From: Cephalotus follicularis
Lineage: Eukaryota > Streptophyta > Magnoliopsida > Oxalidales > Cephalotaceae
Assembly (NCBI GenBank): GCA_001972305.1
Contig: BDDD01000427.1
Span: 244,619 to 308,618 of the forward strand
DNA: 64,000 nt
Direction of reading: 5' to 3'
In this document: positions 14,550 through 62,790 of the stretch, piece by piece
Layout: each line of letters starts with the position of its first letter
Position numbering within the stretch: position 1 is the stretch's first letter
Notes under the pieces: generated by a model
The model's input: the letters and a program-made list of their open reading frames with translations, nothing else
The model's database searches: none
Told to the model about the DNA's origin: nothing
Translations under genes and position numbers: made by a program

Positions 14550-14790
14550 TTCTATAACAGTCGACTGTTTCCTCATAACAGCTGGCTGGATCCTTGAGTC
14601 AGTCGACTGTTCTCCCCAAACAGTCAACTGGTTCATCATGAGAATTCGGCAGTCGACTGCCTTCCTTCGACAGTCGACTGTTCTGGGTAAAAACGCATGC
14701 GTGGTCGACTATTATTACATGGCAGTCGACTGGATGTTTGAGTGTTTGACTGTTTTACTTAAACAGTCGGCTGTTCTGGGCTGGACAGTA
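14550..14790. promoter_or_regulatory. Cluster of CAG-TCGA-CTG near-palindromes (T-minus LTR, second cluster)
   Basis: About ten copies or variants in 240 bp: AACAGTCGACTGTT at 14,556-14,569 and GCAGTCGACTGC at 14,649-14,660 are perfect palindromes, and CAGTCGACTG recurs at 14,600, 14,671 and 14,723. Others are variants (CAGTCAACTG, CAGCTGGCTG, CAGTCGGCTG). Spacing is irregular, so this is not a tandem repeat. Confidence 0.85.
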
Positions 14791-15614
14791 CCAGCAATTC
14801 ACTGTTAATCCATTCTACAAACAATAGGAACTTATCCACATGTATTCAAACCTCAGAATATTACCAGTAATCAGATCCTGGTCTAAAACGCAACTCAATT
14901 CATGCATTATTCTCCGTTTTCATCATAATTCAAGTGACATCCAAACATGGCATTGCATGAAAACCAATCCAATTCTCCATTCAAAATTCAGTAAGCATGC
15001 CAGGTTATCTATCAACAATAACCACAACAACAATACTGGAATCCACAGCCAAAACAACTATACCATTCATTTATAATATAATTACTCTAAAACTCAAAAT
15101 GCATGCATAGAATTCTCTACTATTTTCCCCTACCTTTGATTTCAGGTTAGAAATCGGAAGTCCACCTCTTTGTGTCTCCTATCCAGTGTCTTTGAGCCTC
15201 CCAGTAGCTCCAAGGTCAATTCAACAGCTCCAATCCGAGCTCCAAGCTTAGCAGTGGAGAATGCCCTCTATTTCTCACTATTTCCTCTCTTGATTTCTCA
15301 CTATTTCTTTCACAATTTCACTGGCTCTTTGGCCTTTCGGTATCTCGACGAGAGGAGTGAGGAGAGGTGTTTTATGCAAAGACTTTTGTCTTCCTTCTCC
15401 CCTAGCTCCCTCACATGGCACTAAATGCCTTCCTCCCTCCTAACACTTGCATGCCACACACTTGTCATTCTTTCTCTTGCTTTCTGTCCTTGCAGGTTCT
15501 GGCGTGGTGGTGCATGCTCAACACGTTTTTATTTGTCATCAGATGGCGCCTGCAAGATGCCTTATCAGTGGCTACATGTGATCTCATCACATGCAAATGA
15601 AACAGAGCACGATC

Positions 15615-15775
15615 CAGTCGGCTGCCTTTCCATGGCAGTCGGTTGTTCGCCTGGCAGTCTATTGCCAAGTGTCACGACAATTGGCCAGTCGACTGGTTCA
15701 TCCCACCAGTCGACTGCTTCCACTCGCAGCCCTCCAGGGGGCTGGTCTTCTGTGCCAGTCGACTGCCTCCAGTAA
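15615..15775. promoter_or_regulatory. Cluster of CAG-TCGA-CTG near-palindromes (T-minus LTR, U3 cluster)
   Basis: Six or seven copies: CAGTCGGCTG near 15,618, CAGTCGGTTG near 15,634, CAGTCTATTG near 15,654, and CAGTCGACTG near 15,684, 15,701 and 15,758. It lies 150-310 bp from the LTR 5' end (15,927), the same offset as the clusters in other LTRs here. Confidence 0.83.
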
Positions 15776-15927
15776 ACTTACTAAGTAATTATGCTTCTAA
15801 GTACATAATTGACTTAATATCGACATCGACATCATCAATTTTGGAGAAAACCATCATTTTATTAATCCCACAAATGAAGTACATTTGCATTGCGAAATTA
15901 CAATACGCAAAAATTTCGGGCGTTACA

Positions 15928-18481
15928 ACATCACAACACAATCCGTCAGTAATATAATATGTGCCAAACACCACTTCACAATATCATTTATTACAACATT
16001 TATAAATAATTGTGAGGCTTACACTATATCCAAAACCAATGTCCTAGGATCTCTGTTTAGTATTTAATCGAATCAATTCAATTAATCAAGCACACATAAA
16101 CAAAACCGAATCCAATTTGGCATAAACATAGTGATTGGAATCATATCATCGTTTGGAGGCTCCACCATCTTTAGCCACCTCCTTCACAAGACATTATCAC
16201 CATATAAATTGAGCTCCATGCTTCTCTAATTGACAATAGCAAGCTGTCCCAAACAGCCCCAATATTGTCGTACCAAAATGCCCTACTTGGTTCCCTTGGG
16301 TGTGGAAAGATTGGATACCCATTTGCTCCAATTCCATGCTTCCATTTGTAAAAAACTTGACACACAATTTTCAGCATCAAGTGGGCGCACAAACTTCCCT
16401 ATATGTGTGCAACAACCTACCACAGATTTCTTCCCAAAGAAGTGCACAAAACCTATCCAAAGAAGCTGCACCAATAAGTCCACCTCTTGCGTGCGGCAAG
16501 GCCATCAAAATTGCCCTAATCGTTCGCAACAAGCAATCAAGGTAACACTAAGAATTGGCTATGATCACAACCCCAAATACAAACCAAAACTCACTGTTTT
16601 AATTGCAAAACAACCTTCAATTTCTGCATACATGGCTCAAAAACTATCCATGATTGCGTAAGAAATTCTCCATGGTACAAAGCCAAAATCCGAAGCCATA
16701 AAATGAAGAAAGCCTAAACTAAGTCAAAATAGATAAAGTTAATCTTCAATTAAAGTCTTAGATCCACCTATAATGATTAATATGGTGGAAAGAAGCTTAG
16801 GTTCAATGGAGGAAGTTAGAAATGTTGATGAAGAAGAACACCATGTTCTTTTCTACCTCTCAATTGCTCTCTTTCTTTTTCTCTTGTTCAAAGCCAAACC
16901 CTTGGCTAAGAGAAAATGTCTTGTTTCTTCAATTCTTCCTCTTGGCCGAACACACTCTTCTTTTTCTTTTAAAAATGGCAAGGCATAAGGAACTAGAATG
17001 AAGAAGAATGCTATATCCAAACGATTACTCTTCTCCAAATTACATGTGGCTGGCCTAAAGCATCTTAATGAGAGGTGTCTTACTATTCTTCCAACATGTG
17101 GCCGGCCACCTTGCAAGCATATGAGAGGTGTCACTAATTTCCTGCATCTTCATCTTCTCTTTATATCTCAATGTGACACTTAGTGGGATTAGGTGCACCT
17201 TGCAAGAATATGACAGGTGTCACTAATTTCCTGCATCTTCATCTTCTCTTTATATCTCAATGTGACACTTAGTGGGATTAGGTGCCACTTCCATGTGGTG
17301 CCAAGTGTCCCACTAGTGTTACATTAATATATACTAGTTAATTAACTCGTTTTACAACCAAGTGACATGTGTTCCACACATGTCACTTTCCGATACTCCG
17401 GCGGGACTCAAAAGTCCAGAATAAAATCGGCAACGTCGATAAATTAACGCAGCGCTCCTATGCACAGTTAAAATTACAGCAAATAGTCCCCGACTATTTT
17501 AATAACCCTAAAATCATGTTCAACATATTTCAGGTGATAAAATCAATCCCATATTAATTTCCCACATCGTACGTCCGTTTCTGACTCATCCGGGATTGTT
17601 TCTTGTTGACGGTTACCTTTTACTATAATCCCTCATTATCTCGGTTCCAACAGCGGCCTAGGGTAAGGATACGTGTCAACACTACTTTTTCACAATGCTT
17701 ATACATCCAAAAACTCATTACAACTATCAGAGGACAATTCCAGAAACCAAGTTTCCAGTCCCCATAACCTGCACAGGTATTTTCAGTCTTTAGTGAATAC
17801 AGATAGCATAAAGCCTATCACCCTCACTACGGGTGTGATGATTCCATCTTGCTTACTTGCCTACATTCACACAGATTCGGTAAGGCCCAAAGATCGTCTG
17901 TTTACCATCCCCTCAAGAGAACTGGGTAGGGCGGAGATCAAAGCCAAACTTCCACCACATAATGTAGAGCAGCGGCTCAGGTCTAAGGATCATACAGGTC
18001 CTCTTAGGTTCCACTAGGCACTAAGTGCCTGTACACCACCATCACATATAGGAATTGCTACTGACACGGGATTAGGTACCATCCAAATAGCATTCTTACG
18101 GTGGGTCAAGCTTAGTGTACATGTTCCCAGCATGCACATTGCATTAGCTTTAGGGTTTCTCATAAGTGGCAATGAGATACTCCACCCTCCAATCCGCGAG
18201 AGAAAGCATGACGCGGCAAGTCTAACCGGTTCACTTATGCCCCATATAATTGAACGTCTGACTTGGAACGGTTTAGTCACAAGGAATAAGGAAGTCCTTC
18301 TCATAGCCCCCAAGCCCGACATCCAACCCTTGATGTGACTGGGCACCATATGTGTAAGCAGATAATAAATTTAAACTACTTCGATGATATGATAAAGCAC
18401 ATATGTCTTGCCAGTATTAAATAAAAGTATGCACATATGTCACATAAATGAAATAAGACTGTTTTAACCCAGAGATAACAA
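15928..18481. other. Unassigned AT-rich intergenic or LTR-derived DNA
   Basis: I recognise no gene. It holds an 89-bp tandem duplication (17,108-17,285) and, at about 18,014-18,350, a block related in inverted orientation to 42,757-43,040 (AGTGAACCGG followed by TAGACTTGC on the appropriate strand in each). Open frames here, the longest 143 codons at 16,230-16,661, show no family motif. Parts are probably old LTR DNA. Confidence 0.5.
17108..17285. repeat. 89-bp tandem duplication
   Basis: Two adjacent copies, 17,108-17,196 and 17,197-17,285, start ACCTTGCAAG and end TGGGATTAGGTGC, with two or three differences. Each holds GTGTCACTAATTTCCTGCAT and TTTATATCTCAATGTGACAC. Confidence 0.92.
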
Positions 18482-21090
18482 CTAGATAACCGCAATTATA
18501 ATTAATGTATATTGTACAGTTGATGAATAAAATATGCATTCTATTGAGATTTAATGTCCAATCATTATATGAATTGTGGTTATTGAATTAATTGGTGGTT
18601 TGATTTAGAATGAAATGGGGAAATAAATGTAAGAAACAAGAATCAGCACACAACAGCTGACTACCACAGGGTAACAGACTGGCTGGTTTATGGAAGAAAA
18701 GCCGACTGTCACAGGGTAACAGACGACTGGTTGGTTTAAGTAAGGATAGTCGACATGTCACAGGGTAATAGCCGACTGGTCTGGCTCAGACAGATGTCTG
18801 TGCATGGCATGTGAAACAGGGCAGTGGCAGCCTAAACGTGTCATGCACGACTAATGCGTGCTGCCTGCTGTATAACATGTAAGAGTGGTGTCTTGCATGT
18901 GCTCTATTCCATCTGCAAACATGTAACCTGCAAAACAAAGGAGAAAAGAGTAAGACGAGGTGCATGTGAGAGAGAGAGAAGAGAAAAGTGGAAACCTTGA
19001 GTTAAGAGCTTGAACGAATTACTTGAACTTCGGTTCTATATATCAGTGGTTATGTGAGTGACTACAGTGTTAGAACACAGAGTAAAATAGGAGAATCTTG
19101 CTGGTGATTTTGGTCCTTGCATGTTGGACCTAAAGTGACCCATGAGGGTTAGAAGTTTGAAGTTAAGAGGTAAGCTTCTGTTATGATTTCAAATGTGTTA
19201 TAATCGTTCAATAGGTATATATGTACTGATTGTGTACTACGTATATCTCCTGTTAACATGCACACATAGTTTAATTGCTGGAATTGGAGTTGAGGTGATA
19301 TAAAGAGTTTTGGAACTCAAAGAGAGTTTGAGGCGTAGGATTCCTCTGGTAAGTTGCTGGTTAATTCAGTGATGTTGTGGTAGTTAGCCAACCATATGTA
19401 GTTACTGATTTTCGTTCTATATACCTGTCAACTGCACCTGTAGCATTAAACTTCTAGATTGTTGGTGTTGAGTTGAAGTTGGAACTCAAAGAGAAGAATC
19501 AATCCAATTTGATTCTGGGATAGCGATTGAGGTAGGGGTACTGACAAGTTTTTGAAGATAAAATATGTATAGCATGTATGGATAATTTCTCTGTGATTAC
19601 ATGTTATTAATTGGTTTGAATTGGAATTTGAACATGCATACTCTGTTCTGTTAATCTACTGCCTGACGTTTTCTGGACAAAAACAGTCAACTTTTGAGCC
19701 TAACAGTCTACTGCTCAATGAAAACAGCCGACTGTTAAGGACAAACAGTCAACTGCTCAATGTAAACAGCCGGCTATTCTTATGAACAGTCAATTGTTAA
19801 GAGATAAATTACTGATACTAGGTATTGTTTAGGCTTAAATGATATGTAATTACCCTGGCCTCCACATGGGATAAGTGTAACATTCAATCCTGGCCATATG
19901 TAGATACATTTCAGAAATTAAACAACTTATGCATTCCATTTGTGAATTGTGTAAGAATGACTTTGGATATGTTAATGAATCTTGTTGAATCCTTGAATTG
20001 CTACTGTCTATGTTATTAAGCTGCTATATTATGCTGCTGTTATAGGTATTATATATCTATTAAGTGTTCATAACCACTATTTTTCACTAAATTACAGGGA
20101 TTGAACAACTAAGTGCTATAAGCACAAATATGGATTTTAACTATGGTTTCCAAATGAAAAACTTACTCTCAAATGATTTACTAATTTTCCTCCCTTGAGA
20201 GGTACCACTATTGTATTGATACTGTTTCCTCCAAAGAGAGGTACGGTCACTGAATTGTTAAATGTTTCTAAAAGAAAACTACTATTATATTGCATGTTAT
20301 AAATCTATGTAATATTGCTATTGAATTGATTGAATTGTTTGTCTATGTTTATCGCCGTTAGTCGAGTGATAGGAGACATCACTGGTTACGGGGTGGTCCT
20401 ATGTGCCATGAGTTGGCTAGAGCTTCCACCACACTTATCTACAATGCAGATCTTGATTGTTACCTGCCTGCTAAATGCCGGTAGAATTGTTACCTGATCT
20501 ATCATCTTCGGAGTGTAGGGTGATAGTTAGGTGGTGCGCAGTTGGTACTAAGAGTTAGCGACATGTGACACCCAAACCACTGTATTGAGTGATTTTACCC
20601 TTGTGCGGTATTCTTGAATGGTATTGTCTATGGCCACTTGGAATGATTGCTCATAGATATTGCAATACTTAAATATATATGTTATTTCAAAATAAACTAT
20701 CAAACATGTTTACATTTATATATTCTTGCTCATGCTTTATTCCTACTTAGCCGAGTGAGGATAAAGGCTAACCCCTACAATTTCAGATTGACGAAGGTGT
20801 TGTTCAAGTGCTGCTGAAGCATTATTAGAGAGCTTCTATCTTCTTAAGGTTGTTAAAGATTGTATTGTAATAATCATACTCCGTTTGTTAGTTTTACATT
20901 TCCAATATGTAAAAGATAACTTGTTTTGATTTGTGTAAGCACATAATATGGGTTGCATGCGGATAATTTGGATAATCCGGTTATGGAATGCTTCTGCTTT
21001 TGTTTAATGAATTTTGATTAATGTTGAATGCTGGATTATTTTAACTGATATCTCCATATACGTTGTCTTGTTGGAAAATGGGGTGTGACA
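18482..21090 (+). repeat. LTR A: long chromovirus-type LTR, same family as solo LTR B
   Basis: About 2.6 kb. The start (ATAACCGCAA, then TAATGTATATTGTACAGTTG) and end (GGGGTGTGACA at 21,090) align with LTR B at 34,462-39,188. The conserved box GAGTGAGGATAAAGGCTAAC is at 20,753-20,772, about 320 bp from the LTR end. Clusters of CAGTCGACTG-type words lie at 18,655-18,790 and 19,680-19,800, whereas LTR B has GCGTCGACGC-type words in the matching places. No internal region adjoins it, so it is a solo LTR or fragment. A target duplication was not found. Confidence 0.75.
18655..18790. promoter_or_regulatory. Near-palindrome cluster in LTR A (CAG...CTG type, U3)
   Basis: Words such as CAGCTGACTA, CAGACTGGCTGG, GCCGACTG, CAGACGACTGG, AGTCGACATG and GCCGACTGG alternate with the phrase CACAGGGTAA. 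Offset from the LTR start is about 170-310 bp. A second set (CAGTCAACTG, CAGCCGACTG, CAGCCGGCTA, CAGTCAATTG) is at 19,680-19,800. Confidence 0.75.
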
Positions 21091-22098: not shown

Positions 22099-22744
22099 TG
22101 ATATGGGAGAATTTCTAGACAAATAAGGCACTGACACGTGTCATTCAAAACCACAAATACATGGGCAAAATTATGGAAACGGTATAACAATCTTCAGAGG
22201 CAAAAATGGACTTAGGTGTATAGGGTGCAAAACAAAACATTAAAGATAAACATGGCAGCAGAATAAACACCCTAAACCATACAAAACAATTCCATTTAAA
22301 CAAAATGTCAACACACAAGGATCACCACCTCATCACTATAGTTGAAAAGGTGTCACCAATGCAACCGATGGTAACACAAAAACAAGGCAAAACATGGCCA
22401 CCAAGGAAGGAAGTCATAGAGTTTATATCTTCCGCTGGTAGCTCCTTCTATCTCTGCCCACTACAAGCTTGGGAGGACACCACACAAGCTACTCCCAAAG
22501 TCCCTGGTACAGCAGTTGCTCAAACCAGCAAAGCCACAACTATATTTCCTTACTCTCTCTCTTAATGCTTATAGAGAGAATATTGAATTTTGACAAGTAT
22601 TGTCAAAAGCAATCCACCCTAGATAAGTCACTTGCTTGTTGTGTGATCAGAGAAGGAAACTCCTAAGTGCAGAGAGGTCACTTATCCTTTTTTTGCCTAG
22701 CAAAAATTCAGCTCAATATTTCTAACCCGTTTTTCTGCAGATAA
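22099..22744 (+). other. Tat-II-like LTR start followed by unassigned DNA
   Basis: 22,099-22,150 (TGATATGGGAGAATTTCTAG, then a stretch with ACACGTGTCATTC) matches the start of the Tat-II 3' LTR at 34,272, so this is probably the left edge of the Tat-II block. After about 22,150 the similarity stops, and I recognise nothing until the gypsy pol fragment at 22,745. Confidence 0.5.
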
Positions 22745-23076
22745 TGAACTCACCAAGTCTATCTCATGTACACAATGTATTCCATGTATCACTACTACGG
22801 AAATATATGGCCAACCCATCTCATGTTCTAAGAGTGGAGCCTATTCAAGTGCATGAAGACTTGTCATACAACGAACAACCAGTGGAGATCCTAGATTAAA
22901 AAGAACAAGTCCTGCGGACCAAGACTGTTCTGTTAGTAAAAGTTTTATGGAAAAATCACGAAGTTGAAGAAGCCACATGGGAATTGGAAGATACCATGAG
23001 ACGAGAGTACCCTCATCTTTTTAAGTCTAATGTATAACAAAATTTTGAGGACAAAATTTTTGTAAGGAGGGTAGAT
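22745..23076 (+). pseudogene. Ty3/gypsy integrase C-terminus and polypurine tract preceding LTR G
   Basis: Plus-strand remnant with SPSLSHVHNVFHVSLLRKYM, then RVEPIQVHEDLSYNEQPVEIL and the chromodomain-like end EVEEATWELEDTMRREYPHL, as at the end of chromovirus pol. A polypurine-type tract (TTTGTAAGGAGGGTAGAT) leads into LTR G at 23,077. Only this 3' end is present. Broken fossil. Confidence 0.83.
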
Positions 23077-24206
23077 TGTAAGGACCCAAATTTCCATGTA
23101 AGATATTAAATATGATTTCTATTGTGTATATTGGCAGATAGTTCAAGGGACCCGTAGTATGACCCTACGCTCGGGGAGCACCCCTAGAAGAAATTTTTTT
23201 TTAGCTAAGTGATGAGAAGAAAACTGTCTAAAGCGCCGACAGTTACACTTAAAGCGTCGACGCTTTAGGTGAGAGTCGATCTCCTAATTTTGAACGTCGA
23301 CGCGTTGAAGTTATATGTGTCAGCTGACTCAAAGAGTCGACGCTTTGTGATAAAGCGTCAGCGCTTTAGTCGGGATAAAGGTGAAAAAGTCAGGTAAAAC
23401 CCTTAAGCGCCGACGCTTAGAAGGAAACGGTCGACGCTTTAAGCTGCAGACAAAGGTAAAATCTGACTTTTTGGCATTTTGTAAGTAAAATTCTTTAAGT
23501 GGGGACACGTGGCAGGCCAGGGGAAGATGCTAAAAGGTATTATCTGGAAGGCTCAATGTTAATGGAGCGTAAAGTGCTCACGGACATGCATGTGATGTAA
23601 GGATAGTAATCGGGGAGTGCACAATGCCCCGGTGAAGCGGTGTAAAGGGTTCATTAAGGTTTTTTTTTATTTTCATGTTTACGAAATGATCTAGTTATGA
23701 TATTAACTAGAAAAGTGATATGTTTTATGAAATGTTTTGGTCATATATGTTGACTAGAAAATTGTTATGATAAAATGTGTTTAAACACCTTACTGAGCTC
23801 TTTTGAGCTCATTCCTTTCAATGTTATTTTCAAATAAAATGTTTTCAGGAAAGGAATGAATGGAGATTGCAAGCTTGATGGAGCTTTTAAGGAGTTTTTG
23901 AGAAATAAAAGCTATGCGATGATATTCGCATTATGTTTTGTAATAAGAATAATGTTTTCCGCTGTAATACGTGCTTATGTAATAGTGATCCTGTGTAATG
24001 TAACCAACGATATGGTTAAGACACCTTAATGTAGAATGATTATGTATAAAGTTTGAAATTTAAGGTTATGTACGATTTTGCAAGACGTGAATTTATGATG
24101 TTATGAAAAGAGTACCAAAGGATATAACGTTTCACACCCAAGGTAGCGCAACCAATCTTCGTAGTTCGCTTTGAGCTTAAGGTGGACTCGGGTCGGGGTC
24201 GCTACA
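23077..24206 (+). repeat. LTR G (plus copy)
   Basis: 1,130 bp, starting TGTAAGGACCCAAATTTCC and ending GGGGTCGCTACA. The same family occurs as a 2.0-kb solo LTR on the minus strand at 35,727-37,727 and as a fragment at 43,311-43,720. It follows a pol end and polypurine tract, so it is the 3' LTR of that element. A dense AAAGCG-TCGA-CGCTTT cluster lies at 23,222-23,445. Confidence 0.85.
23222..23445. promoter_or_regulatory. AAAGCG-TCGA-CGCTTT near-palindrome cluster in LTR G
   Basis: TAAAGCGTCGACGCTTTA at 23,250-23,267 is a perfect 18-bp palindrome. TAAAGCGTCAGCGCTTTA at 23,351-23,368 is a variant found again in SIRE-2 (LTR and spacer). Others are AAGCGCCGAC, GAGTCGACGCTTT, AAGCGCCGACGCTT and GGTCGACGCTTTA. 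The offset is about 145-370 bp from the LTR start. Confidence 0.88.
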
Positions 24207-26643
24207 GAAGACGTCGACATCTTTGAAAGGAATATCAGTCACGTTATGAACTGACAGAATAACATACAATGGGGCAACTTTTGAGGCATCATCCTGTCAT
24301 CTTTCCATGCACAATGCGACATGGTGATCATGCTGGTGTGTTGCCAGGCATGCTCCAAAACGTGTTCCTCCCCTGGTGCATGCAAGGGCTGTGCCATCTC
24401 TTCACCTGCGACCTGCAGAAGAGAAAAGGGAGAGAGTCAAAAACAGAGAAGAGAGAAGAGGACACGGGTGTGGATGCATGTGAAACTAGAGGAAAGGGAA
24501 GGAACTCTGCCAACATAAAACACCTCCTCCTTCCCCTCCTCCTCTGTTAAACACTGTGAGAGAAAGAACAGAGAAAGAAAAGGAGAAGATAGAACCACCA
24601 TTGTCAAACTTGGTTGGAGCTTGGAACTTGGAGCTGGTGGCTTACAGCAGCAGGAAGGACCTAGAGGCTGCTGTAACCAGTTCTGAACTTAAAGGGGTGG
24701 ACTTTCCAGTTCCTAACATGGAACAACAAGGTAGGGGAAAGTGATGATTCTTATACATGCTTTTTGAGTTCTAAGATAATGAACGCCATTGATGAATTGC
24801 ATGCTAATGGGTGAATTGTAATCTCTGGACCTCTGTGATGACTACTGTGATATACGGAGTAACCATGCATGTGTGATTACATGAATATTTGAACTGGTTG
24901 TGTAAAGGATGGATTTGATAATAGCTTGGTGTGTTAAAACTATGGAGAAAACATTCTGGGTTGGATAGACGTCGACACTTACATAAAGACGTCGATGCCT
25001 TCGTGTGTAAATGTGAAAGACATCAATGCTTGAGTAAAGACATCGATACCTTTTTTGGGCATTGTATAATAGTAATGTTATGCCTTCGTGTGTGAATACG
25101 AAAGACATCGATGTCTTTGGGAAGACATCGACGCCTTTTCTGGGTATTGCAAAACAGTAGTGTTTACTATTGTTGGTGAACAACCTTTGGTGATTGCATG
25201 TTTTATTCATGAAATGATGTTCTGGTAACATATTATGATAACCAGTAGCATGCCTTACACTTTGAGAGGGTGAGATTCATTTATATGAAGGAGTGAGGGC
25301 CGGATTCTACCCTCTAGAATCAAGATCTGCGAACTGATACTCCCTGGTATCATAAAGACATCGACGTCTTTGGAAAAGCATCGATGTCTTTGGTCCAAAA
25401 ATGCCTCGGAATAAATGTACGAATTGTTGGTGCCTCAGAGTAAAGACGTCAACGCCTTTGGGATAAACATCGACGCTTATCCCTCTGTTTGGAAGAGTTT
25501 CACCCGAATGGAAAATGACTCTAGAAACGATCCTAGATGCCCTCTGAGCATATGTTTGCATTATTACTGTGAATTGCATTACGGTTGATTTCAAAAGGTG
25601 TTATACATTTTGAAAAGCTTGTATGATTATTATAATCATTATTGTATGAAAATGTATATTTGTGAACATATGAATATATATATTTTTGAAATGACTGGGG
25701 AAAGTATTTTCCAAAGACAGAGAAATGTTTTAAAGGATTGGTTACACAATTCAAATTGTATTGTTTTAAGTTTATAACTTATTACAACCTGATACGGAGT
25801 TTTATATTTTTAAATAAATATATTTGATCAAGTAATTTTATTCATTGCTTGACTTGTACTCTACGGTGTTTGTGCTTGTTGATTATTTGCCGATGTGCTA
25901 ATAACCTGTTGATTGTTTAGCCGTCATGCTAGGCAACCTGTACGGAGAACTTGCTTCAAACCGTTCGCAAACGGGGATTAGAGTAAGAGTGCATGACGTT
26001 CGGGCCAGGAGGTGGCGACGGTCATGACGCCTTGTTTGTCTGGTTCCTTTTTGGGACATACTTGCTGCTTGTGTGGATATAGCCTTTTGAGGTTATACCT
26101 GTATTATGAACATGCATATACTTTATACATGTATATCCTGTGATATATATATTCTATACTGCATCATAATGCATTCATTCATGTTGCTCGATATCATATA
26201 ACTCGAACTGTATTTATGAGTCTTTTCACTTAGCCGAGTGAGGACAAAGGCTAACCCCTACTATAACAGATTGATGGAGTGGGATTTGATACGGAGCAAC
26301 GCAAGGAGACTTAAGGAGAAGATGGAGTTGTTCTCTTATTTTATGTACTGGTCTATGGAACAATGATTATAACAATTGGATTATTGTAACGTGGTTTATT
26401 TATTCGTGCTGTATTATCACGCTCCGTTTATGGGCGATCGACAATGTTATTGGGTTTTATATAAACTTTGTGGGTATCATGTAGTATGGGATGCGTGATA
26501 CATATTTAAATTCAGCTTATTTCATGTTATTGCTTCCGCTATTGAAGGTCGTTGCTTTTACATTTTATCGCATAAGCTGAATTATGTTGTGTTGATTGCC
26601 TTACCTTTTGTGTTGCCTTCTTTGTGAAAACGGGGGCGTGACA
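24207..26643 (+). repeat. T-plus 5' LTR
   Basis: It ends CGGGGGCGTGACA at 26,643, like the right copy. It shares with the T-minus LTR the block around CCGTTCGCAAACGGGGAT (about 25,960) and the box GAGTGAGGACAAAGGCTAAC at 26,236-26,255. Near-palindromes of the AAGACA-TCGA-TGTCTT type lie at 24,208, 24,965-25,143 and 25,355-25,480; AAAGACATCGATGTCTTT at 25,101-25,118 is a perfect 18-bp palindrome. Confidence 0.85.
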
Positions 26644-27702
26644 ATATGGTCAGCACATCATGCTTACATGGACTGCTACAGCAAGACGGTTGATTTTCGC
26701 CTGCCCGATGGTACTGTTTTCCAGTTTAAGGGAGACAAGTGGTTCTCTACACCAATTATATCCTTCATTCGTGCGTCAAAGTATCTCGAGAAGGGATGCG
26801 AAGGATATCTCGCTTACGTAATTGACCGGAGGAAAGAGAAGAGTCTGAGCCTGGAGGACATCCCAGTGGTGTGTGAATTTCTAGATGTATTTCCTGATGA
26901 CTTGGGATCTTTGCCACCAAGAAGGAATATGGAGTTTGTTATCGACCTTATACCAGGTGCAGCTCCTATTTCTAAAGCACCATACAGAATGGCTCCTGCA
27001 GAATTGAGGGAACTAAAATTGCAATTACAAGATCTAATCGATAAGGGTTTTATTCGACCCAGTGTTTCTCCGTGGGGTGCACCTGTACTGTTTGTCAAGG
27101 AGAAGGATGGGTCGATGAGGCTTTTCATTGACTACAGAATGTTAAACAAGGCAACTATCAAGAACAAGTATCCTTTACCTCACATCAAGGATTTGTTTGA
27201 CCAGTTGCAAGGACCAAGAGTATTCTCGAAACTTGCTTTGAGGTCAGTCTATCACCAGTTGAGGGTGAGGGGAGGAGATATTGAGAAGACTGCTTTCCGG
27301 ACAAGGTATGGTCACTACGAGTTCCTCGTGATGCCGTTTGGTGTTACCAATGCACCGACTGCGTTCATGTCATTAATGAATTATGTGTTTCGACCGTACC
27401 TGGATCAGTTTGTCATTGTGTTTATTGAAGACGTACTAGTATACTCAAGGAGTGAGGAGGAGTATGCTTGCCATCCGAGGTTGGTTTTGCAGATTCTCCG
27501 AGAACAACAGCTGTATGCCAAATTCATTATGTGTGAATTTTGGCTTGACCGTGTGATCTTCCTTGGTCACATTGTATCTGGAGAGGGTTTGGAGGTGGAT
27601 CCGTCGAAGACAGAGGTGGTGCAAGATTGGCCACAGCCGAAGAACGTGATGGAGGTACGCAGCTTTTTTGGCTTGGCAGGGTATTACAGAAGGTTTATCT
27701 AG
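26644..27702 (+). CDS. T-plus protease end and reverse transcriptase
   Basis: The frame opens in the protease end ([19 protein letters not shown]), passes the linker ([16 protein letters not shown]) and continues through chromovirus RT blocks: [89 protein letters not shown] and [17 protein letters not shown]. This wording is typical of Tekay/Del chromoviruses and clearly differs from the Tat RT at 3,553. Part of a broken element. Confidence 0.9.
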
Positions 27703-28312
27703 AACTTTTCAAGGATAGCCGAGCCTTTGACTAGACTGACGCAGAAGAAGACTTTGTTTGTCTGGGATGAAGATTGTGAAGCTAGTTTCCGTGAACTGAA
27801 GGATCGGTTGGTTTTTCGCTCCTATCATGGCATTACCTGAGGGTAATGAGGGCTTTGCAGTCTATAGTGATGCATCGGGTAAGGGCTTGGGCTGAGTGCT
27901 GATGCAGCGAGGAAGGGTGATTGCTTATGCTTCTAGGAAGCTGAAGCCATATGAAGAAAACTACCCGACTCATGAACTTGAACATGCAGCTATTATATTT
28001 GCTCTTCAGAATTGGAGACACTACTTGTATGGAGCTCAGTTTGAGATCTTTACCGATCATAAGAGTTTGAGATACCGGTTTTGGCAAGACACACTGAACA
28101 TGAGACAGCACAGGTGGGTGGAGTTCTTTAATGATTATGACTGTAGTATCCAATACCACCCAGGGAAAGCAAATGTAGTCGCTGATGCATTGAGCCGCAA
28201 GGCTATGGTTGCCAGTACGATGGTGTCGCAATGGAACATGTTAGAGGACTTCCAAGAGTGGTCTCCGTTCTATCAGTCACCGGGGATTTTTGTGGCCGAC
28301 ATGCGGGTCTAG
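27703..28312 (+). CDS. T-plus RNase H
   Basis: Ty3/gypsy RNase H region. From about 27,900 it reads [53 protein letters not shown] and [16 protein letters not shown], the standard blocks. The domain would remove the RNA strand during cDNA synthesis. Part of a broken element. Confidence 0.85.
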
Positions 28313-28315
28313 CCA

Positions 28316-29740
28316 GTGTTACCGGATCACATCAGGGATGCACAACCACATGATCCAGAGTTGCAACGAATTCAGGAGAACCTGGACTCGGAATCCGATT
28401 TTCGAGTACATGCTGATGGTCTTCTAAAATATCGGGGACCTGTGTGTCTCCCAGATGAACTAGGATTGAAGAAGGAGTTGCTTTGCAGGGCTCATAAATC
28501 CTTGTGCAGTATTCATCCTGGTAGTACCAAAATGTACCAAGATATGAAGAAGACTTACTGGTGGCCTGGCATGAAGCCCAAAATTGCAGAATATGTCGCG
28601 AAGTGTTTGACTTGCCACAGGGTCAATGCCGAACACCAGAGACCGGCAAGACTGTTACAGTCATTACTAGTGGAAGAGTGGAAATGGGAACACATTACGA
28701 TGGACTTTGTTTCTGGATTTCCACTTACTAGGCATCGTCATAATGCAGTGTGGGTTATTATTGATAGACTCACCAAATCAGCACACTTTTTGCCTACACA
28801 CGTCACTGATTCAGCGAGCAAGTTGGCTCGATTATATGTGAAGGAGATTGTGAGACTACACGGTGTTCCGGTGAGCATCGTTTGTGATAGGGATTCGATC
28901 TTCACTTCCAACTTCTGGAAGAGATTTTAGACAGCATTCAGAACGAGATTGAATCTCAATATTGCTTTTCACCCTCAGACCGATGGGCAGTCTGAGCCTA
29001 CCATCCAGACCTTGGAGGATATGCTACGGGCTTGCATTATTGATTTTGCTGGTACTTGGGAGGATCACATTCCTTTGATAGAGTTCTCTTATAATAACAG
29101 CCATCATTCCAGTATCGGCATGGCACCGTTTGAAGTGCTGTATGGGAGGAAGTGTAGATCTCCTGTGTGTTGGGATGAGGTTGGTGAACGACCATTGCTT
29201 GGGTCAGATTTTGTGGAGGAGACTTCAGAGAAAGTCAAGTTCATCAAAGAGAAGTTGCTAACAGTACAGAGTCTACAGAAGAGCTATGCCGACAGTGTAA
29301 AGAGAAGGCCTTTAACCTTCAATGTTGGAGATAACGTTTTTTTGAAGGTATCTCTGTGGAAAGGCGTGCAAAGATTCAAAAAGAAGGGCAAGTTAGCGCC
29401 ACGCTATATTGGTCCTTTTGAGATTCTAGAGAGGGTTGGGGAGGTAGCTTATCAGCTAGCCTTCCCGCCTACTTTGTCGGGCGTACATGATATCTTCCAT
29501 GTATCGATGCTACGAGGTTATATCCGAGATGCATCACATGTCCTGGATTATGACTCGGTTATGGTGAGGGATGACCTTTCCTGTGAGGAGTCACCCATGA
29601 GAATCTTGGATTGGAAGACACAAGTATTGAGGAACCGTACCATTCCGATGGTAATGGTCCAGTGGCAATTTCATCGGCCGGATGAAGCGACCTGGGAATG
29701 TGGGGATGACATTCGAGAGCGTTACCCACACTTGTTCTAG
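28316..29740 (+). CDS. T-plus integrase with C-terminal chromodomain-like end
   Basis: The zinc-binding region is at about 28,490-28,640 ([32 protein letters not shown]). The catalytic core reads [42 protein letters not shown] and [20 protein letters not shown]. The C-terminal part has [17 protein letters not shown] and [11 protein letters not shown], and the end [19 protein letters not shown] fits the chromodomain-type tail of these elements. Part of a broken element. Confidence 0.88.
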
Positions 29741-29768
29741 TATTGTGTTAATTTTGAGGACGAAATTT

Positions 29769-29785
29769 CTTGAAGGAGGGGTGAA
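29769..29785 (+). other. T-plus polypurine tract
   Basis: CTTGAAGGAGGGGTGAA directly precedes the LTR start TGTAACGCC at 29,786 and follows GAGGACGAAATT, the usual chromovirus end phrase. Confidence 0.85.
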
Positions 29786-31873
29786 TGTAACGCCTGGTTT
29801 TTTTCCTGAATGTAACATTTTGATTTATGATGTAATCTTAAACTTGGTTGGAGCTTGGAACTTGGAGCTGGTGGCTTACAGCAACAGGAAGGACCTAGAG
29901 GCTGCTGTAACCAGTTTGGAAATTAAAGGGGTGGACTTTCCAGTTCCTAACGTGGAACAACAAGGTAGGGGAAAGTGATGATTCTTATACATGCTTTTTG
30001 AGTTCTAAGATAATGAATGCCATTGATGAATTGCATGTTAATGGGTGAATTTTAATCTCTGCACTTCTGTGATGACTACTATGATATACGAAGTAACCAT
30101 GCATGTGTGATTACATGAATATTTGAACTGGTTGTGTAAAGGATGGATTTGATAATAGCTTGGTGTGTTGAAACTGTGGAGAAAACGTTCTGGGTTGGAT
30201 AGACGTCGACTCTTACATAAAGACGTCGATGCCTTCGTGTGTAAATGTGAAAGACATTGATGCTTGAGTAAAGACATCGATGCCTTTTCTGGGCATTGTA
30301 GAGCAGTAATGTTATGCCTTCGTGTGTGAATACGAAAGACATCGATGTCTTTGAGAAGACATCGACGCCTTTTCTTGGTATTGCAAAACAGTAGTGTTTA
30401 CTGTTGTTGGTGAACTACCTTTGGTGATTACATGTTTTATTCATGAAATGATGTTCTGGTTACATATTATGATAACCAGTAGCATGCCTTACACTTTGAG
30501 AGGGTGAGATTCGTTTATATGAAGGAGTGAGGGCCGGATTCTACCCTCTAGAATCAAGATTCGCCTGATACTCCCTGGTATCATAAAGACACCGACGTCT
30601 TTGGAAAAGCATCGATGTCTTTGGTCCAAAAACGCCTGGGAATAGCTGTACGAATTGTTGGCACCTTAGAGTAAAGACGTCGACGACTTTGGGATAAACA
30701 TCGATGCTTATCCCTCTGTTTGGAAGAGTTTCACCCGAATGGAACCCGTTAGACCCGAAACGACTCTAGAAACGATCCTAGATGCCCTCTGAGCATATGT
30801 TTGCATTATTACTGTGAATTGCATTATGGTTGATTTCAAAAAGTGTTAACCATTTTGAAAAGCTTGTATGATTATTATTATCATTATTGTATGAAAATGT
30901 ATATTTGTCAACATATGAATATATATTTTTTCGAAATGACTGGGGAAAGTATTTTCCAAAGATGGAGAAATGTTTTAAAGGGTTGGTTACACAATTCAAA
31001 TTGTATTGTTTTAAGTTTATAACTTATTACAACCTGAGAGTTTTATATTTTTAAACAAATATATTCGATCAAGTAATTATATTCATTGCTTGACTTGTAC
31101 TATACGGTGTTTGTGCTTGTTGATTATTGGCCGCTGTGCTAATAACCTGCTGATTGTTTAGCCGTAGTGCTAGGCAACCTGTGCGGAGGACTTGCTTGAA
31201 ACCGTTCGCAAACGGGGATTAGAGTAAGAGTGCATGACGTTGGTGCCAGGAGGTGGCGACGGTCATGATGACTTCTTTGTCTGGTTCCTTTTTGGGACAT
31301 ACTTGCTGCTTGTGCGGATATAGCCTTCTGAGGTTATACCTGTATTATGAACATGCATATACTTTATACATGTATATAGTGTGATATATAGCATCATAAT
31401 GCATTCATTCATGTTGCTCGTTATCATATACCTCAAACTGTATTTATGAGTCTTTTCACTTAGCCGAGTGAGGACAAAGGCTAACCCCTACTGTAACAGA
31501 TTGATGGAGTGGGATTTGATACGGAGCAACGCAAGGAGACTTAAGGAGAAGACTGAGTTGTTCTCTTATTTTATGTACCGATCTATGGAACAATGATTAT
31601 AACAATTGGATTATTGTAACGTGGTTTATTTATTCGTGTTGTATTATCACGCTCCGTTTATGGGCGATCGACAATATTATTGGGTTTTATATAAACTTTG
31701 TGGGTATCATATAGTATGGGATACGTGATACATATTTTAATTCAACTTATTTCATGTTATTGCTTCCGCTATTGAAGGTCTTTGCTTTTACGTTTTATCG
31801 CATAAGCTGAATTATGTTGTGTTGATTGCCTTACCTTTTATGTTGCCTTCTTTATGAAAACGGGGGCGTGACA
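29786..31873 (+). repeat. T-plus 3' LTR
   Basis: 2,088 bp, from TGTAACGCCTGG to CGGGGGCGTGACA. Most of it aligns with 24,605-26,643. The conserved box is at 31,466-31,485. Near-palindromes lie at 30,198-30,375 and 30,590-30,715, including the perfect AAAGACATCGATGTCTTT at 30,335-30,352. Confidence 0.87.
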
Positions 31874-43123: not shown

Positions 43124-43310
43124 TGTAACTCCCGAAAATTTCATTTGAGGTGTTATTGCATTTCTCATTGAAGGATTTTCATAATTGATGAGGAATGATG
43201 GAATTTCATTTGAAATGTTGCCCGTTAGGGTAAGAATAGTGGAAAGCATTATGCGGATTGAAAAAAAAAGGGCTAACCTTAAGCGTCGACGCCTAAGAAG
43301 TAAGCGTCGA
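43124..43310 (+). repeat. LTR H fragment (5' end)
   Basis: TGTAACTCCCGAAAATTTC looks like a long-LTR chromovirus start. CTTAAGCGTCGACGCC and AAGCGTCGA lie near 43,280-43,310, about 156 bp inside the start. It is cut by LTR G at 43,311; the rest should lie beyond the window. Confidence 0.65.
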
Positions 43311-45719: not shown

Positions 45720-46648
45720 TCATCCTCTAAGATAATAAATGTCAGCTTGAGGCAAATCCATCCTAGCCTGAAGAGACTCCAGAGTAGGTCTGCTGCTGTT
45801 GCTGCTTCTTGCTCCAACATTTGGTCGCATTTCAAATTGTTGACCATCATCATCCTCTTCTTCCTCATCATCCCCTCCAGCTCTCACATTAGCTGGTTCC
45901 CTCACTTGTTCTCTTCCCCCAGCCAGTTGCTTCACCCACAACCCATCCTCAAACCTAATATTGCAATTTCTAAGTCCGACCTTGTTTATTAATTGCTTAT
46001 GGGATGGTTTAACCGTATGCTCATCATCGGGTACATCGAGATTGAGAGATGCTAGGATCCTACTAATAAGCATAGGGTAAGGGATGTGGTTGGGTCTAGA
46101 CAACATGTGATTTATGATTAGGTATGGAAGATTCACAAGGGTGCCATTTTTAATGCAATAGGAAGATGGCTACTAGTTACGGTCATGATTGGGTTAAAAT
46201 TGGGTCGTTCTAAGCAAATGTCAATTGCTTCTAATTTTTCAACATCATTAAAGTGTATAATTTCGGAATTGGGAATCCCTAATGTTTCAGAAATTAACTC
46301 GGGAGTTATAGACACCGCATTTCCTAAGATAAAGGAATTGGCTACACAAGTTGTAGAATTATCAAGATTGGCATAAAAGAGTTTGACAAGCCTAGGGTAT
46401 ATGGTGTGTGATGAGCATAGATAATCAAACCATCCCATTCCCTCTAACCAAGACTTAATAATTGCAATATTACTAACTAATATATCACTAGATAACCACT
46501 TCTCATTGTGCAATTTAAAAAAGTTGATAACAGAGTGATACCTAGTTTCTTTCTCCTTGGAGAGAAAGAGTTCATTGTCGTAGTCAATAATGCCTTGAGA
46601 AGCTCGTGGTTGCCTTGTTGCTATGCTCTTTCATCTCTTTGAAGCCAT
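45720..46648 (-). CDS. SIRE-1 envelope-like extra ORF
   Basis: Minus-strand coding region after pol, from an ATG near 46,648 (open pieces 46,133-46,513 and 45,720-46,136). Features: MHNEKWLSSDILVSNIAIIK, the core VANSFILGNAVSITPELISE with TLGIPNSEIIHF, LVNLPYLIINHMLSRPNHI, and an acidic tail (GGDDEEEEDDDGQQ) with a short coiled-coil-like end. It matches the plant 'putative transposon/envelope-like' protein of SIRE elements. I see no clear signal peptide or membrane helix, so an envelope role is not supported here. SIRE-2 carries the counterpart at 62,901 onward. Broken fossil. Confidence 0.75.
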
Positions 46649-46759
46649 ATGGATCAATTGCAGGTTCATTGTAGAGAGTTTTAGGGTTTTAGGCAGTTTT
46701 AGAGTGAGAGGGATTAAGAGAAATAAGGGGAAATAGGGTTTTTAAAACCTGATTCCCGT

Positions 46760-46850
46760 GCCTCCAGTCGACTGGGCTCTATTGGCCAGTCGGCTGGCTG
46801 TTAGGCACTCGACTGGACAATGTGTCCAGTCGGCTGGTTTCTGCAGATTT
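46760..46850. promoter_or_regulatory. CAG-TCGA-CTG cluster in the SIRE-1 pol/extra-ORF spacer
   Basis: CCAGTCGACTGG at 46,764-46,775 is a perfect 12-bp palindrome, followed by CCAGTCGGCTGG, CACTCGACTGG and CCAGTCGGCTGG. These are the same words as in the SIRE-1 LTR. It lies just after the pol end and about 115-200 bp before the extra ORF start, a place where a separate promoter could act. Confidence 0.85.
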
Positions 46851-48287: not shown

Positions 48288-48290
48288 TTA

Positions 48291-48772
48291 TGTCTCAATC
48301 CTAAGTTTTGATGATAACATATTTGTCTTTAACAAAGTTTCTTGATATGCAAGAAAGCCATGAAGTGAGCAAAACAGCAAGAATTATGCAGAATACAGGT
48401 CAGACTGTCGACGCCCAAGGTTAAAGCGTCAGCGCTTTAGGAGGCTGCCGAGACAAGAGCCTAAGCGTCTACCGGTGAAGCACTTGGAGAAGTGGAAGAA
48501 CTACTCAAACCGCCGACGTTCAATATTCAAGCGTCTACGCTTTGAGGTACAAAGTGCCTGCTCTTTGTGCAAAGCGCCTGCCGATTAAACCAGTGAACGC
48601 AACTTCAATTAAAAGTGGCTTAAGCGTCGACGCCCAAGACTAAGCGTCCGCGCTTTGAGGTGCCGGTCGAGTCCGACGTTTTGGACGCCTGCGCTTTGAG
48701 CTGAGAATTTGAATTTGAGATCGTTGGGAAAAGTGGACGTAGGCAAGAGTTACGCCGAACCACTCTAAACTA
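48291..48772 (+). repeat. SIRE-2 5' LTR sequence
   Basis: TGTCTCAATCCTAAGTTTTG is a typical SIRE LTR start. Near-palindromes follow at 48,405-48,690. The right edge is not clear: no primer-binding site was found before gag begins near 48,830. Confidence 0.75.
48405..48690. promoter_or_regulatory. AAAGCG-TCGA-CGCTTT cluster in the SIRE-2 LTR
   Basis: ACTGTCGACGCC near 48,414, TAAAGCGTCAGCGCTTTA at 48,422-48,439, then AAGCGTCTACCGG, CCGCCGACGTT, AAGCGTCTACGCTTTG, TTAAGCGTCGACGCCC, AAGCGTCCGCGCTTTG and GGACGCCTGCGCTTTG. The offset is about 120-390 bp from the LTR start. The first 18-mer recurs in LTR G (23,351) and in the SIRE-2 spacer (62,664). Confidence 0.88.
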
Positions 48773-58809: not shown

Positions 58810-58814
58810 AAAAC

Positions 58815-58992: not shown

Positions 58993-59001
58993 AGGAAAAC
59001 C

Positions 59002-59436: not shown

Positions 59437-59445
59437 AATTCATGC

Positions 59446-60696: not shown

Positions 60697-62096
60697 TTGA
60701 AGAATCCATGCATGTTGTTTTTGATGAATCTAACCCCAAACTTCCAAAAGAAGTTATTGTTGATGATTGTGTAGATTTCATTAAAAATGGTGTTAGCAAG
60801 ATTAATCTAGATGAAGCAAAAAGGGAGGAGTCCACCAAAGGAGAGACCCCTCAAGAAAGCTATCAAGAGGCTCTTCATGATAAAACCTTGAAGGTGGTAA
60901 GAGGACATCCTCATGAAGCTATTATAGGTAACCCTAGATTAGGTGTTTCTACTAGTTCTAGCATTAATCATAATTATATTGCATTTTTATCTCAAATTGA
61001 GCCTAAAAATATAAACGAGGCCGAAAAAGATGAAAATTGGATCAATGCCATGCAAGAGAAATTGAATCAATTTGAAAGAAGTAAAGTATGGAACCTAGTA
61101 CCTAGACCTAGTAACCAAAACATAATAGGTACAAAATGGGTTTATAGGAACAAGGTAGATGACCAATGCACTGTTATTAGAAACAAAGCTAGGTTAGTTG
61201 CTAAGGGTTATTCCCAAGAAGAGGGAATAGACTTTGATGAGTCATATGCACCCGTAGCTAGATTAGAGTCCATACGCATGTTGCTTGCATATGCATCATT
61301 TAAAGATTTTACTCTTTTTCAAATGGATGTGAAAAGTGCGTTTTTAAATGGGTTAATAAAGGAGGAAGTGTATGTGGAACAACCTCCCGGGTTTGAAAAC
61401 CCTCTTTTTCGCAACCATGTTTTTAAGCTTTCAAAGGCTTTATATGGCCTAAAACAAGCTCTAAGAGCTTGGTATGAAAAGCTAAGTGGATATCTTCTTG
61501 AAAATGGTTTTAAAAGAGGCACTATTGGCGTTACCCTTTTTAAAAAAACTGTCAATAATGAAATATTAATTGTTCAATTATATGTAGATGATATCATTTT
61601 CGGTTCTACTAACAAAAACTTGTGCAAGAGTTTTGCTAAGATCATGCAGGTAGAATTCGAAATGAGCATGATGGGTGAGCTCAATTACTTCCTTGGACTT
61701 CAAGTCCAACAATTGGAGGAAGGTATCTTCATCAATCAATCAAAGTATGTCAAGGACTTACTGAAGAGATTTGGGATGGAGAATGCCAAGAAGAGCAAGA
61801 CACCCATGAGCACAACTACAAAGCTTGACAAGGATGAGCAAGGTAAGTCAATCGATCAAAAATTGTATAGAAGTATGATAGGATCTTTGCTCTATTTAAC
61901 GGCAAGTAGGCCAGATATATTGTTTAGTGTATGCTTGTGTGCTAGATTTCAGGCTTGTCCCAAAGAATCACATTTGCATGCCGTAAAACGCATCTTTAAA
62001 TATTTAGCATATACACCATCCTTAGGATTATGGTATCCTAGGAAATCATCCTTTGGCCTACATACTTACTCCGATGCCGATTTCGGAGGATATTAA
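60690..62096 (+). CDS. SIRE-2 reverse transcriptase
   Basis: 468 residues. The first 130 are the linker from integrase ([13 protein letters not shown]). RT blocks: [110 protein letters not shown] (about residue 300) and [20 protein letters not shown]. It closely parallels SIRE-1 RT at 47,055-48,287, although it carries the other near-palindrome type in its LTR. Confidence 0.93.
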
Positions 62097-62525
62097 GTGG
62101 ATAGAAAGACCACAAGTGGCACATGTCAATTCTTAGGCAATATGCTCATTTCTTGGTTTAGCAAGAAACAAAATTCGGTAGCACTTTCGACTATCGAAGC
62201 CGAATATATTGCCGCAGGCAGTTGTTGCGCACAAATCATGTGGATGAAGCAACAACTCCTTGACTATGGGTTTAACTTTGCCGAAGTGCCAATTAGGTGT
62301 GATAACACTAGTGCAATATGCTTAGGGAAAACCCCCGTTCATCACTCTAGAACTAAGCACATAGAAATTAGATATTGTTTCATAAAAGACCACATAGAAA
62401 AGGGTGATATAGAATTAGTTTTCGTCCCGACCCAAGAACAAGTCGCGGACATATTCACCAAGCCTTTAGATGAACAAACCTTCTCGAAATTTAGATTGGA
62501 AGTAGGTTTGTGTGAAATTGATTGA
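62097..62525 (+). CDS. SIRE-2 RNase H
   Basis: Copia RNase H: DRKTTSGTCQFLGNMLIS, NSVALSTIEAEYIAAGSCCA, IRCDNTSAICLGKTPVHHSR and KHIEIRYCFIKDHIEKGDIE, with the end DIFTKPLDEQTFSKFRLEVG. It follows RT directly and ends the pol region. Part of a broken element. Confidence 0.9.
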   Translation: MDRKTTSGTCQFLGNMLISWFSKKQNSVALSTIEAEYIAAGSCCAQIMWMKQQLLDYGFNFAEVPIRCDNTSAICLGKTPVHHSRTKHIEIRYCFIKDHIEKGDIELVFVPTQEQVADIFTKPLDEQTFSKFRLEVGLCEID

Positions 62526-62639
62526 TCAACATGGTTCTATGATTATTGTGAATATGTATGCTTGCTCAAAGTGCGTGTTTTCTCTTTTGTGCATCATTTG
62601 CATTCATTCTCGCGTGTTTGCGGAAAAACAGCAGAAAAC

Positions 62640-62790
62640 AGAGCTAAGCGCCGACTGTTGTGTTTAAAGCGTCAGCGCTTTAAGTAAAATTAGGGTTCGA
62701 GAATTGAGGAAATTGGTCTAAGTACCGACACTTAAACCCACTCTGTCGACGCTTCAGTCCCGTTTTAAGACAGAAAGCGCCGTCTGTCAA
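62640..62790. promoter_or_regulatory. AAAGCG-TCGA-CGCTTT cluster in the SIRE-2 pol/extra-ORF spacer
   Basis: AAGCGCCGACTGTTG near 62,646, TTAAAGCGTCAGCGCTTTAA at 62,664-62,683, GTACCGACACTTAA, CTGTCGACGCTTCAG near 62,745 and AAAGCGCCGTC near 62,774. These are the same words as in the SIRE-2 LTR. It lies 115-265 bp after the pol stop and about 110-260 bp before the extra ORF. Confidence 0.86.

Follow-up and report, generated by a model that had tools for sequence, protein, structure and literature searches.

In Cephalotus follicularis, long terminal repeats (LTRs) of Sireviruses (Ty1/copia) and of Ty3/gypsy retrotransposons carry arrays of short motifs, largely palindromes centred on TCGA, which begin at a preferred distance from the LTR 5' end, follow each other at about 21 bp, are nearly uniform in motif type within an array, differ in type between homologous LTRs and are shared by the two superfamilies. 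The arrays were found in a stretch of 64,000 nucleotides (contig BDDD01000427.1, positions 244,619 to 308,618; hereafter the window) and in LTRs from elsewhere in the assembly (1.577 Gb, to which all genome-wide counts refer). They are probably cis-regulatory binding-site arrays, each keyed to one specificity and read by related sequence-specific DNA-binding proteins acting on the LTR promoter; protein binding, cooperativity and an effect on transcription are what we infer from the sequence.

The Sirevirus sample consists of 20 LTR starts (about 890 bp each; the first 20 listed among 5,817). The gypsy-type sample consists of 20 stretches upstream of primer-binding site (PBS) junctions, chosen by hand among 100 listed of 7,247 so as to cover seven PBS spacer types; their proportions therefore differ from those of the genome. 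Single loci are designated L plus a number (L028 contains 945 N). In the window, ten LTR stretches (16.6 kb in total) were delimited by homology, the start of LTR B being placed by eye. A comparison set of 200 kb, which includes 6,311 N, was drawn from 20 contigs elsewhere in the assembly.

Excess and position of TCGA-centred palindromes

In the window, 20 palindromes of 10 bp or longer have TCGA at their centre, whereas 100 dinucleotide shuffles yield 3.00 ± 1.42. Of the 15 remaining palindromic tetramer centres, TGCA ranks next by excess (11 versus 5.1). In the 200 kb from elsewhere, TCGA centres number 70 versus 8.0 ± 2.7 after shuffling, and ATAT (61 versus 24) and TATA (57 versus 17) centres are likewise in excess. 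Genome-wide, CCAGTCGACTGG occurs 14,615 times and its reversed pattern 45 times, and for TAAAGCGTCGACGCTTTA the counts are 456 and 0. The shuffles (window, 200 kb, LTR sets) rule out chance or base composition as the cause, and satellite DNA is ruled out because the spacers differ between sites. The initial annotation of the window, which had noticed the palindromes and had set satellite DNA aside, is confirmed on both counts; the three perfect palindromes that it named were found exactly at 14,556, 23,250 and 25,101.

The sites are concentrated in LTRs: 77 of the 89 near-consensus sites of the window lie in the ten LTR stretches and 12 in the other 47.4 kb, four of the latter forming the array ahead of the env-like gene of the Sirevirus SIRE-1 (see below). 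Where the 5' end of the LTR was recognised, the first site is located 123-206 bp inside; 120-180 bp had been proposed initially. Among the 20 Sirevirus LTRs, 15 have at least five sites, the first of them at 123-167 bp. The first site is found at 167-198 bp in the five gypsy LTRs of group G1 with a recognised start (5 of 20 gypsy loci) and, in the window, at 167 bp in the T-minus LTR, 169 bp in SIRE-1, 152 bp in SIRE-2 and about 206 bp in LTR B.

Palindrome density along the LTRs, compared with shuffled LTRs (20 Sirevirus LTRs, 20 gypsy loci), shows both an excess and a preferred offset. The 20 Sirevirus 3' LTR starts contain 40 palindromes versus 2.5 after shuffling, and both the first 100 bp and the part past 700 bp are free of them. 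The 20 gypsy loci together contain 58 versus 3.4, and in the five LTRs with a recognised start the palindromes are confined to the bins 100-400 and 1100-1500 bp, G1 LTRs possessing a second cluster 1.1-1.5 kb inside. Neither the 5' position nor the second cluster appears in shuffled LTRs. A TATAWAW sequence is found 90-144 bp past the final site in 13 of 15 Sirevirus LTRs, L060 having an additional copy only 49 bp away. Arrays are not universal in LTRs, as the repeat pairs 206-1,066/10,955-11,815 and 50,080-52,639/55,158-57,717 of the window contain one stray site or none.

Spacing of the sites

The spacing had been described as irregular; in fact, no signal is stronger than the distance of about 21 bp. 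The 51 clusters have 358 gaps between neighbouring sites, of which 215 measure 19-23 bp, whereas sites placed at random inside each cluster's span (1,000 runs) give 55.8 ± 6.7 and at most 77. As copies within a family are not independent, the gaps were also tallied group by group (groups defined by LTR homology, see below): 13/17 in SIRE-1, 36/61 in S1, 80/123 in S2, 22/37 in type A and 29/52 in type C LTRs of G1, 25/35 in type A and 10/16 in type B LTRs of G2, 6/13 in L041, 2/3 in L039, and 3/3 in the array ahead of the env-like gene of SIRE-1. The modal gap is 20 or 21 bp in all seven LTR groups, which include both superfamilies and more than one motif type, and in L041.

Exact type A words 1-30 bp apart form 48,686 pairs genome-wide (166 for the reversed pattern), and type C words form 18,444 (62 for the reversed pattern). 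Among 69 listed A pairs (contig C1, plus strand, 11-40 bp allowed), 57 are spaced by 19-22 bp and 12 by 27-28 bp. Among 50 listed C pairs (contigs C1-C3) the distances are 19-22 bp (25 pairs), 29-31 bp (3 pairs) and 40-42 bp (22 pairs), the last class touching the limit of a search that allowed 13-42 bp; we read these classes as two, three and four helical turns. Both lists include pairs that are copies of each other. By eye, the longer A spacers (27-28 bp) often contain a word like TGCGTGTTGTG, perhaps a second binding site. Spacers within one LTR are 46.5% alike versus 36.4% when shuffled, so that duplication has left a trace; the sites themselves are retained.

Motif types and their carriers

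At least four motif types can be distinguished: A, CAGYCGACTG; B, AAGCGTCGACGCTT; C, AAAGACATCGACGYCTTT; and D, GTCAACGC. Type D is not palindromic; it replaces the TCGA palindromes in the Sirevirus LTRs L048 and L059, with similar spacing (many gaps of 19-22 bp) and mostly in a single orientation (14 versus 2 and 18 versus 4 by a simple pattern). In our reading, an oriented core R-Y-C-R-A-C is common to all four types.

Arrays, some of them degenerate, are present in 18 of 20 Sirevirus and 18 of 20 gypsy-type loci. None was found in the gypsy-type loci L034 and L042 (2 of 20) and in the Sirevirus loci L058 and L063 (2 of 20); both of the latter LTRs are interrupted by other sequence, which is homologous to gypsy pol in L063 and was judged by eye in L058. 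By LTR homology the Sirevirus sample comprises S1 (type B), S2 (type C), S3 (type D) and the two interrupted LTRs. SIRE-1 of the window is separate from S1-S3, and its type A was found among Sireviruses in SIRE-1 and L013 only (0 of 20 in the sample). The gypsy-type sample comprises G1 (types A and C), G2 (types A and B) and single loci. G1 belongs to Ty3/gypsy, with RVT_1, integrase and the Tf2-1 SH3 domain inside the window LTR pair 24,606-26,647/29,840-31,877; in L019, also of G1, the SH3 part stops just ahead of the 3' LTR. For G2 no pol was found alongside, and its superfamily assignment is tentative.

Sirevirus (Ty1/copia) LTRs have motif types in common with those of Ty3/gypsy elements (pol seen for G1 only), in agreement with the initial description of clusters in LTRs of both Ty1 and Ty3 elements. 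In a comparison of Sirevirus with gypsy LTRs, the 25 best matches are just 36-93 bp long and those checked fall on arrays. The sharing is therefore not explained by common ancestry of whole LTRs; transfer of the array alone between superfamilies may be its source.

Within an LTR one type prevails. In 32 LTRs, 222 of 230 sites (at most 15% mismatch) are of the majority type, versus a permuted mean of 131 and maximum of 146; 8 of 40 LTRs were dropped for having fewer than three such sites. The 48,686 A-A and 18,444 C-C neighbour pairs in 1.58 Gb compare with 12 A-C pairs, and the 12 places (exact words within 30 bp) are alike, with a third, degenerate site in between. Related LTRs can differ in type: G1 LTRs carry type A or C though their 3' parts are 74-80% identical, and in the window LTR A and LTR B, of types A and B respectively, are homologous across stretches of 110 and 118 bp. 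Well supported are 3 of 9 inner branches in the LTR tree of G1 and 2 of 4 in that of G2, and branches are long, so that type switches cannot be counted.

Arrays ahead of the env-like gene

A type-matched array precedes a gene resembling PF20167 (Transposase_32) in both Sireviruses of the window (type A in one, degenerate type B in the other) and in L013 (type A). The LTR of SIRE-1 carries a type A array at 44,315-44,827 (minus strand; 18 sites, 169-671 bp from the 5' end at 44,991, TATA at 719). Four more type A sites (46,764-46,836, minus strand; gaps 22, 19 and 21) lie between its pol and the env-like gene, which consists of two overlapping frames with weak PF20167 matches (45,720-46,630, minus strand). 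The other array (62,645-62,788, plus strand) has a copia pol on one side and a PF20167-like frame (63,141-63,500) on the other; its sites at 62,652, 62,673, 62,726, 62,747 and 62,781 have 3, 2, 4, 4 and 5 mismatches of 14, with two gaps of 21. This element is probably SIRE-2, whose LTR is of type B, judging from gag (48,743), the repeat pair at 50-58 kb and pol (59,437).

The PF20167 scores (34.8, 19.7 and 30.2) are all under the curated cut-off of 45 bits; close database homologues of the env-like proteins carry PF20167, and the best match of the window protein to C. follicularis proteins (CFOL_v3) reaches 90%. The PF20167-like fragments of the two window elements share 18% identity over 92 positions, compared with 74% over 265 positions for the pol proteins. 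Such divergence would suit an element-encoded reader co-evolving with its motif, as in the VANC proteins of VANDAL transposons (see below), and weak constraint would look identical.

Possible readers of the arrays and alternative explanations

According to the explanation that we regard as probable, a related set of putative DNA-binding proteins, each probably a dimer or two-domain unit covering 10-18 bp, would sit on adjacent sites separated by about two helical turns and act on the LTR promoter. Each array would be keyed to one specificity (A, B, C or D), and LTR lineages would change key. As unrelated superfamilies use the same keys, the readers would be shared in trans. They may be encoded by the host or by an element, with a slight lean to a host factor family. 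The oriented core RYCGAC resembles what we take to be the CBF consensus (AP2/ERF, CBF/DREB); a literature search did not confirm this, type D does not fit, and it serves as a lead only. Among the papers listed as containing the core word (20 of 29), no title concerned retrotransposons. Sites for a dimeric protein had been suggested before. The dense, type-specific motifs in U3 fit this suggestion as far as a probably multimeric binder is concerned; a plain symmetric dimer does not agree with the polarity seen in several groups or with the non-palindromic type D.

Several observations weigh against such keyed arrays. One LTR combines types (L031, with A and then B nearer the PBS), as do L038 and L040 when thresholds are relaxed. 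Array growth through duplication explains part of the type uniformity, and the copies of a family are not independent. The A pairs spaced by 27-28 bp (12 of the 69 listed) are helically out of phase. Polarity along the LTR is, in our reading, unexpected for a symmetric homodimer, and the folding z-score is more negative on the antisense strand in 16 of 16 segments (-3.4 to -14.5).

The last two points bear on structure in RNA. Mispairs between the arms favour A.C over G.T on the sense strand (314:86 in eleven groups), most strongly in type C of both superfamilies (146:16 and 80:13), with an even or reversed bias in four of the eleven groups (16:19, 18:16, 0:2 and 1:6). This dominance of A.C implies that pairing of the sense RNA is not what is conserved. 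The arrays could instead be kept for hairpins or inter-site pairing of an antisense transcript or the minus strand, with consequences for small RNAs. Such antisense structure is a live rival, which we consider improbable. It would account for the z-scores and for mispairs that are mostly of the kind remaining G.U on the antisense strand, and palindrome-rich LTR regions of maize Sireviruses are reported to be small-RNA hot spots. Hairpins, however, do not demand an exact spacing of 20-21 bp or the helical-turn steps of type C, and the polar position of type A (±2) would fall in the loop. Furthermore, the flanks of exact A sites (n = 58), examined for a hairpin stem beyond the core, show no clear covariation: complementary pairs number 24/58 versus 18.4 expected at ±6, 23/58 versus 18.7 at ±7, 5/58 versus 16.5 at ±8 and 9/58 versus 15.3 at ±9. 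Hairpin stems reaching past the A core are thus rejected, and because of the spacing and this lack of clear covariation we assign the polarity to the DNA site. Strand-biased mutation as its cause is not supported for gypsy LTRs, where TG (4,491) exceeds CA (2,847) outside the sites and C sites lean the opposite way; in Sirevirus LTRs (CA 1,126 versus TG 835 outside the sites) it could contribute. A neutral spread of a 21-bp unit via tandem duplication, to which the motif is incidental, appears very unlikely. Some adjacent spacers in SIRE-1 are near copies, and spacers in general are more alike than shuffled ones, as this would predict; but sites are retained while spacers diverge, the same spacing recurs across unrelated LTR groups, and clusters about 1 kb apart within an LTR, as well as LTR and pre-env arrays, are mostly of one type.

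A narrower form of the favoured explanation, overlapping with it, holds that the Sirevirus PF20167-like "env" protein binds the motif type of its own element, which it activates or de-silences, and is borrowed by gypsy LTRs carrying that type. We regard this as possible but doubtful. The type-matched arrays ahead of the PF20167-like gene in SIRE-1, the 62.6-kb element and L013 and the contrast of 18% with 74% identity between env-like and pol proteins point in this direction, as does the finding (PMC5735166, PMC10398659) that VANC6 motifs occur also in the unrelated element AT9TSD1, which responds to VANC6. The evidence comes from three elements only, however; the Pfam matches are below the cut-off, the DNA-binding domain is only putative, the predicted structure of a PF20167 protein was discarded at a pLDDT of 37, and fast divergence may reflect weak constraint. 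Moreover, Sireviruses without env retain the motifs according to Bousios 2010 (PMC2829016). A more elaborate version seems rather unlikely: near-exclusive trans-acting channels, in which PF20167-like proteins would be fast-evolving activators or anti-silencers with arrays of their own key in LTRs and before the factor gene, gypsy families tuning to one channel and switching as a whole. If true, it would represent a VANC-like system for LTR retrotransposons across two superfamilies.

Binding-site arrays of the kind favoured here would make a precise code out of a Sirevirus LTR feature that has had little explanation: few keys, a spacing of about two turns and, for most elements, a single key, with unrelated retrotransposons among the users. 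With such a code, the reader of a motif should be findable by DNA-affinity sequencing. The arrays bear on the sharing or borrowing of transcriptional control among plant retrotransposons and on their possible evasion of silencing, as well as on the persistence of a Sirevirus "envelope" gene in walled plant cells.

Relation to known repeated motifs

The initial annotation knew of no such system in LTR retrotransposons. Element-specific palindromic repeated motifs are, however, described for Sirevirus LTRs and for the region before the env gene in Bousios 2010 (PMC2829016), including TCGA-centred motifs in Vitis (CGGTCGACCG) and Tnd-1 (ACAATCGATTGT). Palindromes in maize Sirevirus LTRs were reported by Bousios et al. 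2016, as cited in PMC5311732 and PMC10760457. Like these RM boxes, the Cephalotus arrays comprise many palindromic copies in the upper LTR half, upstream of TATA, and again before env. Compared with the at least eight copies per element given for RM boxes in the upper LTR half, SIRE-1 has 18 sites and S1 and S2 LTRs have 6-18; the cluster lies upstream of TATA in 13 of 15 Sirevirus LTRs and in SIRE-1, and copies are present upstream of env in SIRE-1, the 62.6-kb element and L013.

The differences from RM boxes are several. The Sirevirus arrays start 123-169 bp inside the LTR rather than at 200-400 bp. RM boxes have a CGG-CCG core in all elements but Tnd-1, whereas types B, C and D lack it and some type A sites read CAGCCGGCTG. 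The motifs of PMC2829016 are absent from the classic elements of its Ty1/copia set; the Cephalotus arrays are not restricted to Sireviruses, being carried by the 18 of 20 gypsy-type PBS loci (Ty3/gypsy pol for G1 only). Further differences are a second intra-LTR cluster, the distance of about 21 bp between sites, the near-exclusivity of types, differing types in homologous LTRs and one type without dyad symmetry. Sharing with gypsy elements, the 21-bp rule, near-exclusive types and type changes were not found in a search of the open-licence PMC literature. The Sirevirus part is a new member of the known RM-box kind.

VANC motifs of VANDAL transposons, as characterized in PMC5735166 and PMC10398659, are short, family-specific, dense in noncoding regions and of one orientation, and evolve with tandem repeats. 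The parallel with VANC drawn initially has some basis in the dense, type-specific short motifs; polarity is seen in some Cephalotus groups only, and type D is one-sided. The two differ in that VANDALs are DNA transposons rather than LTR elements and that the VANC motifs given there (YAGTATTAY, AGTTGTCC/AGTTGTAC) are not the Cephalotus keys. Binding of an element-encoded protein and demethylation belong to VANC, whereas the Cephalotus arrays are known from their sequence.

Repeated cis elements in LTR promoters are also represented by the 13-bp element in U3 of Tto1, which is reportedly stress-responsive. The likeness lies in the repetition within the promoter; such boxes are said to be lineage-specific activator sites rather than alternative keys across superfamilies.

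Other array-bearing LTRs and neighbouring elements of the window

The T-minus LTR (13,326-15,927, minus strand; PBS junction at 13,323, LTR start at 15,927) was assigned to Ty3/gypsy G1 by homology. Its U3 array of type A (15,614-15,765) has six sites with gaps of 21, 19, 31, 21 and 49, and the second type A cluster (14,557-14,773) seven sites with gaps of 42, 21, 29, 21, 52 and 41. LTR A (about 18,480-21,090, plus strand), placed in G2 by homology to L032 and L033, has three type A sites near its 5' side (18,698-18,778; gaps 21 and 49) and a second cluster of five (19,683-19,796; gaps 20, 21, 21 and 41). LTR B, which starts at about 34,462 and is partly homologous to LTR A, carries type B sites at 34,661-34,742 (plus strand).

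Two arrays of type B were assigned to "LTR G". The first (23,230-23,439, plus strand) has a gypsy pol SH3 fragment (22,729-23,022) on its 5' side; the second (37,388-37,555, plus strand) has five sites with gaps of 40, 21, 71 and 21, and six when the threshold is loosened. LTR H of the initial annotation contains a single type B palindrome (43,279-43,296). In SIRE-2 (LTR from 48,279, plus strand) six type B sites were found at the loose threshold (48,423-48,655; gaps 39, 45, 21, 93 and 20). The apparent halves of this element, gag and pol, are separated by the repeat pair 50,080-52,639/55,158-57,717, each 2.56 kb, 98.8% identical and presumably LTRs, without arrays.

The element at 206-11,815, which we take to be Tat-like, possesses an 861-bp repeat pair (95% identical), gag, RVT_1 and RVT_3, and one stray site in its LTRs. 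In the G1 element at 24,606-31,877, the type C LTR (24,208-26,647, plus strand; 5' part incomplete) has its downstream cluster at 24,985-25,475 and one more site at 24,207. Its partner (29,840-31,877, plus strand; type C sites at 30,219-30,711) is 93.9% identical over 2,056 bp. As pol follows the 5' LTR immediately (RVT_1 frame from 26,596), gag seems to be missing. A gag-like match is located at 31,890-32,216, past the second LTR.

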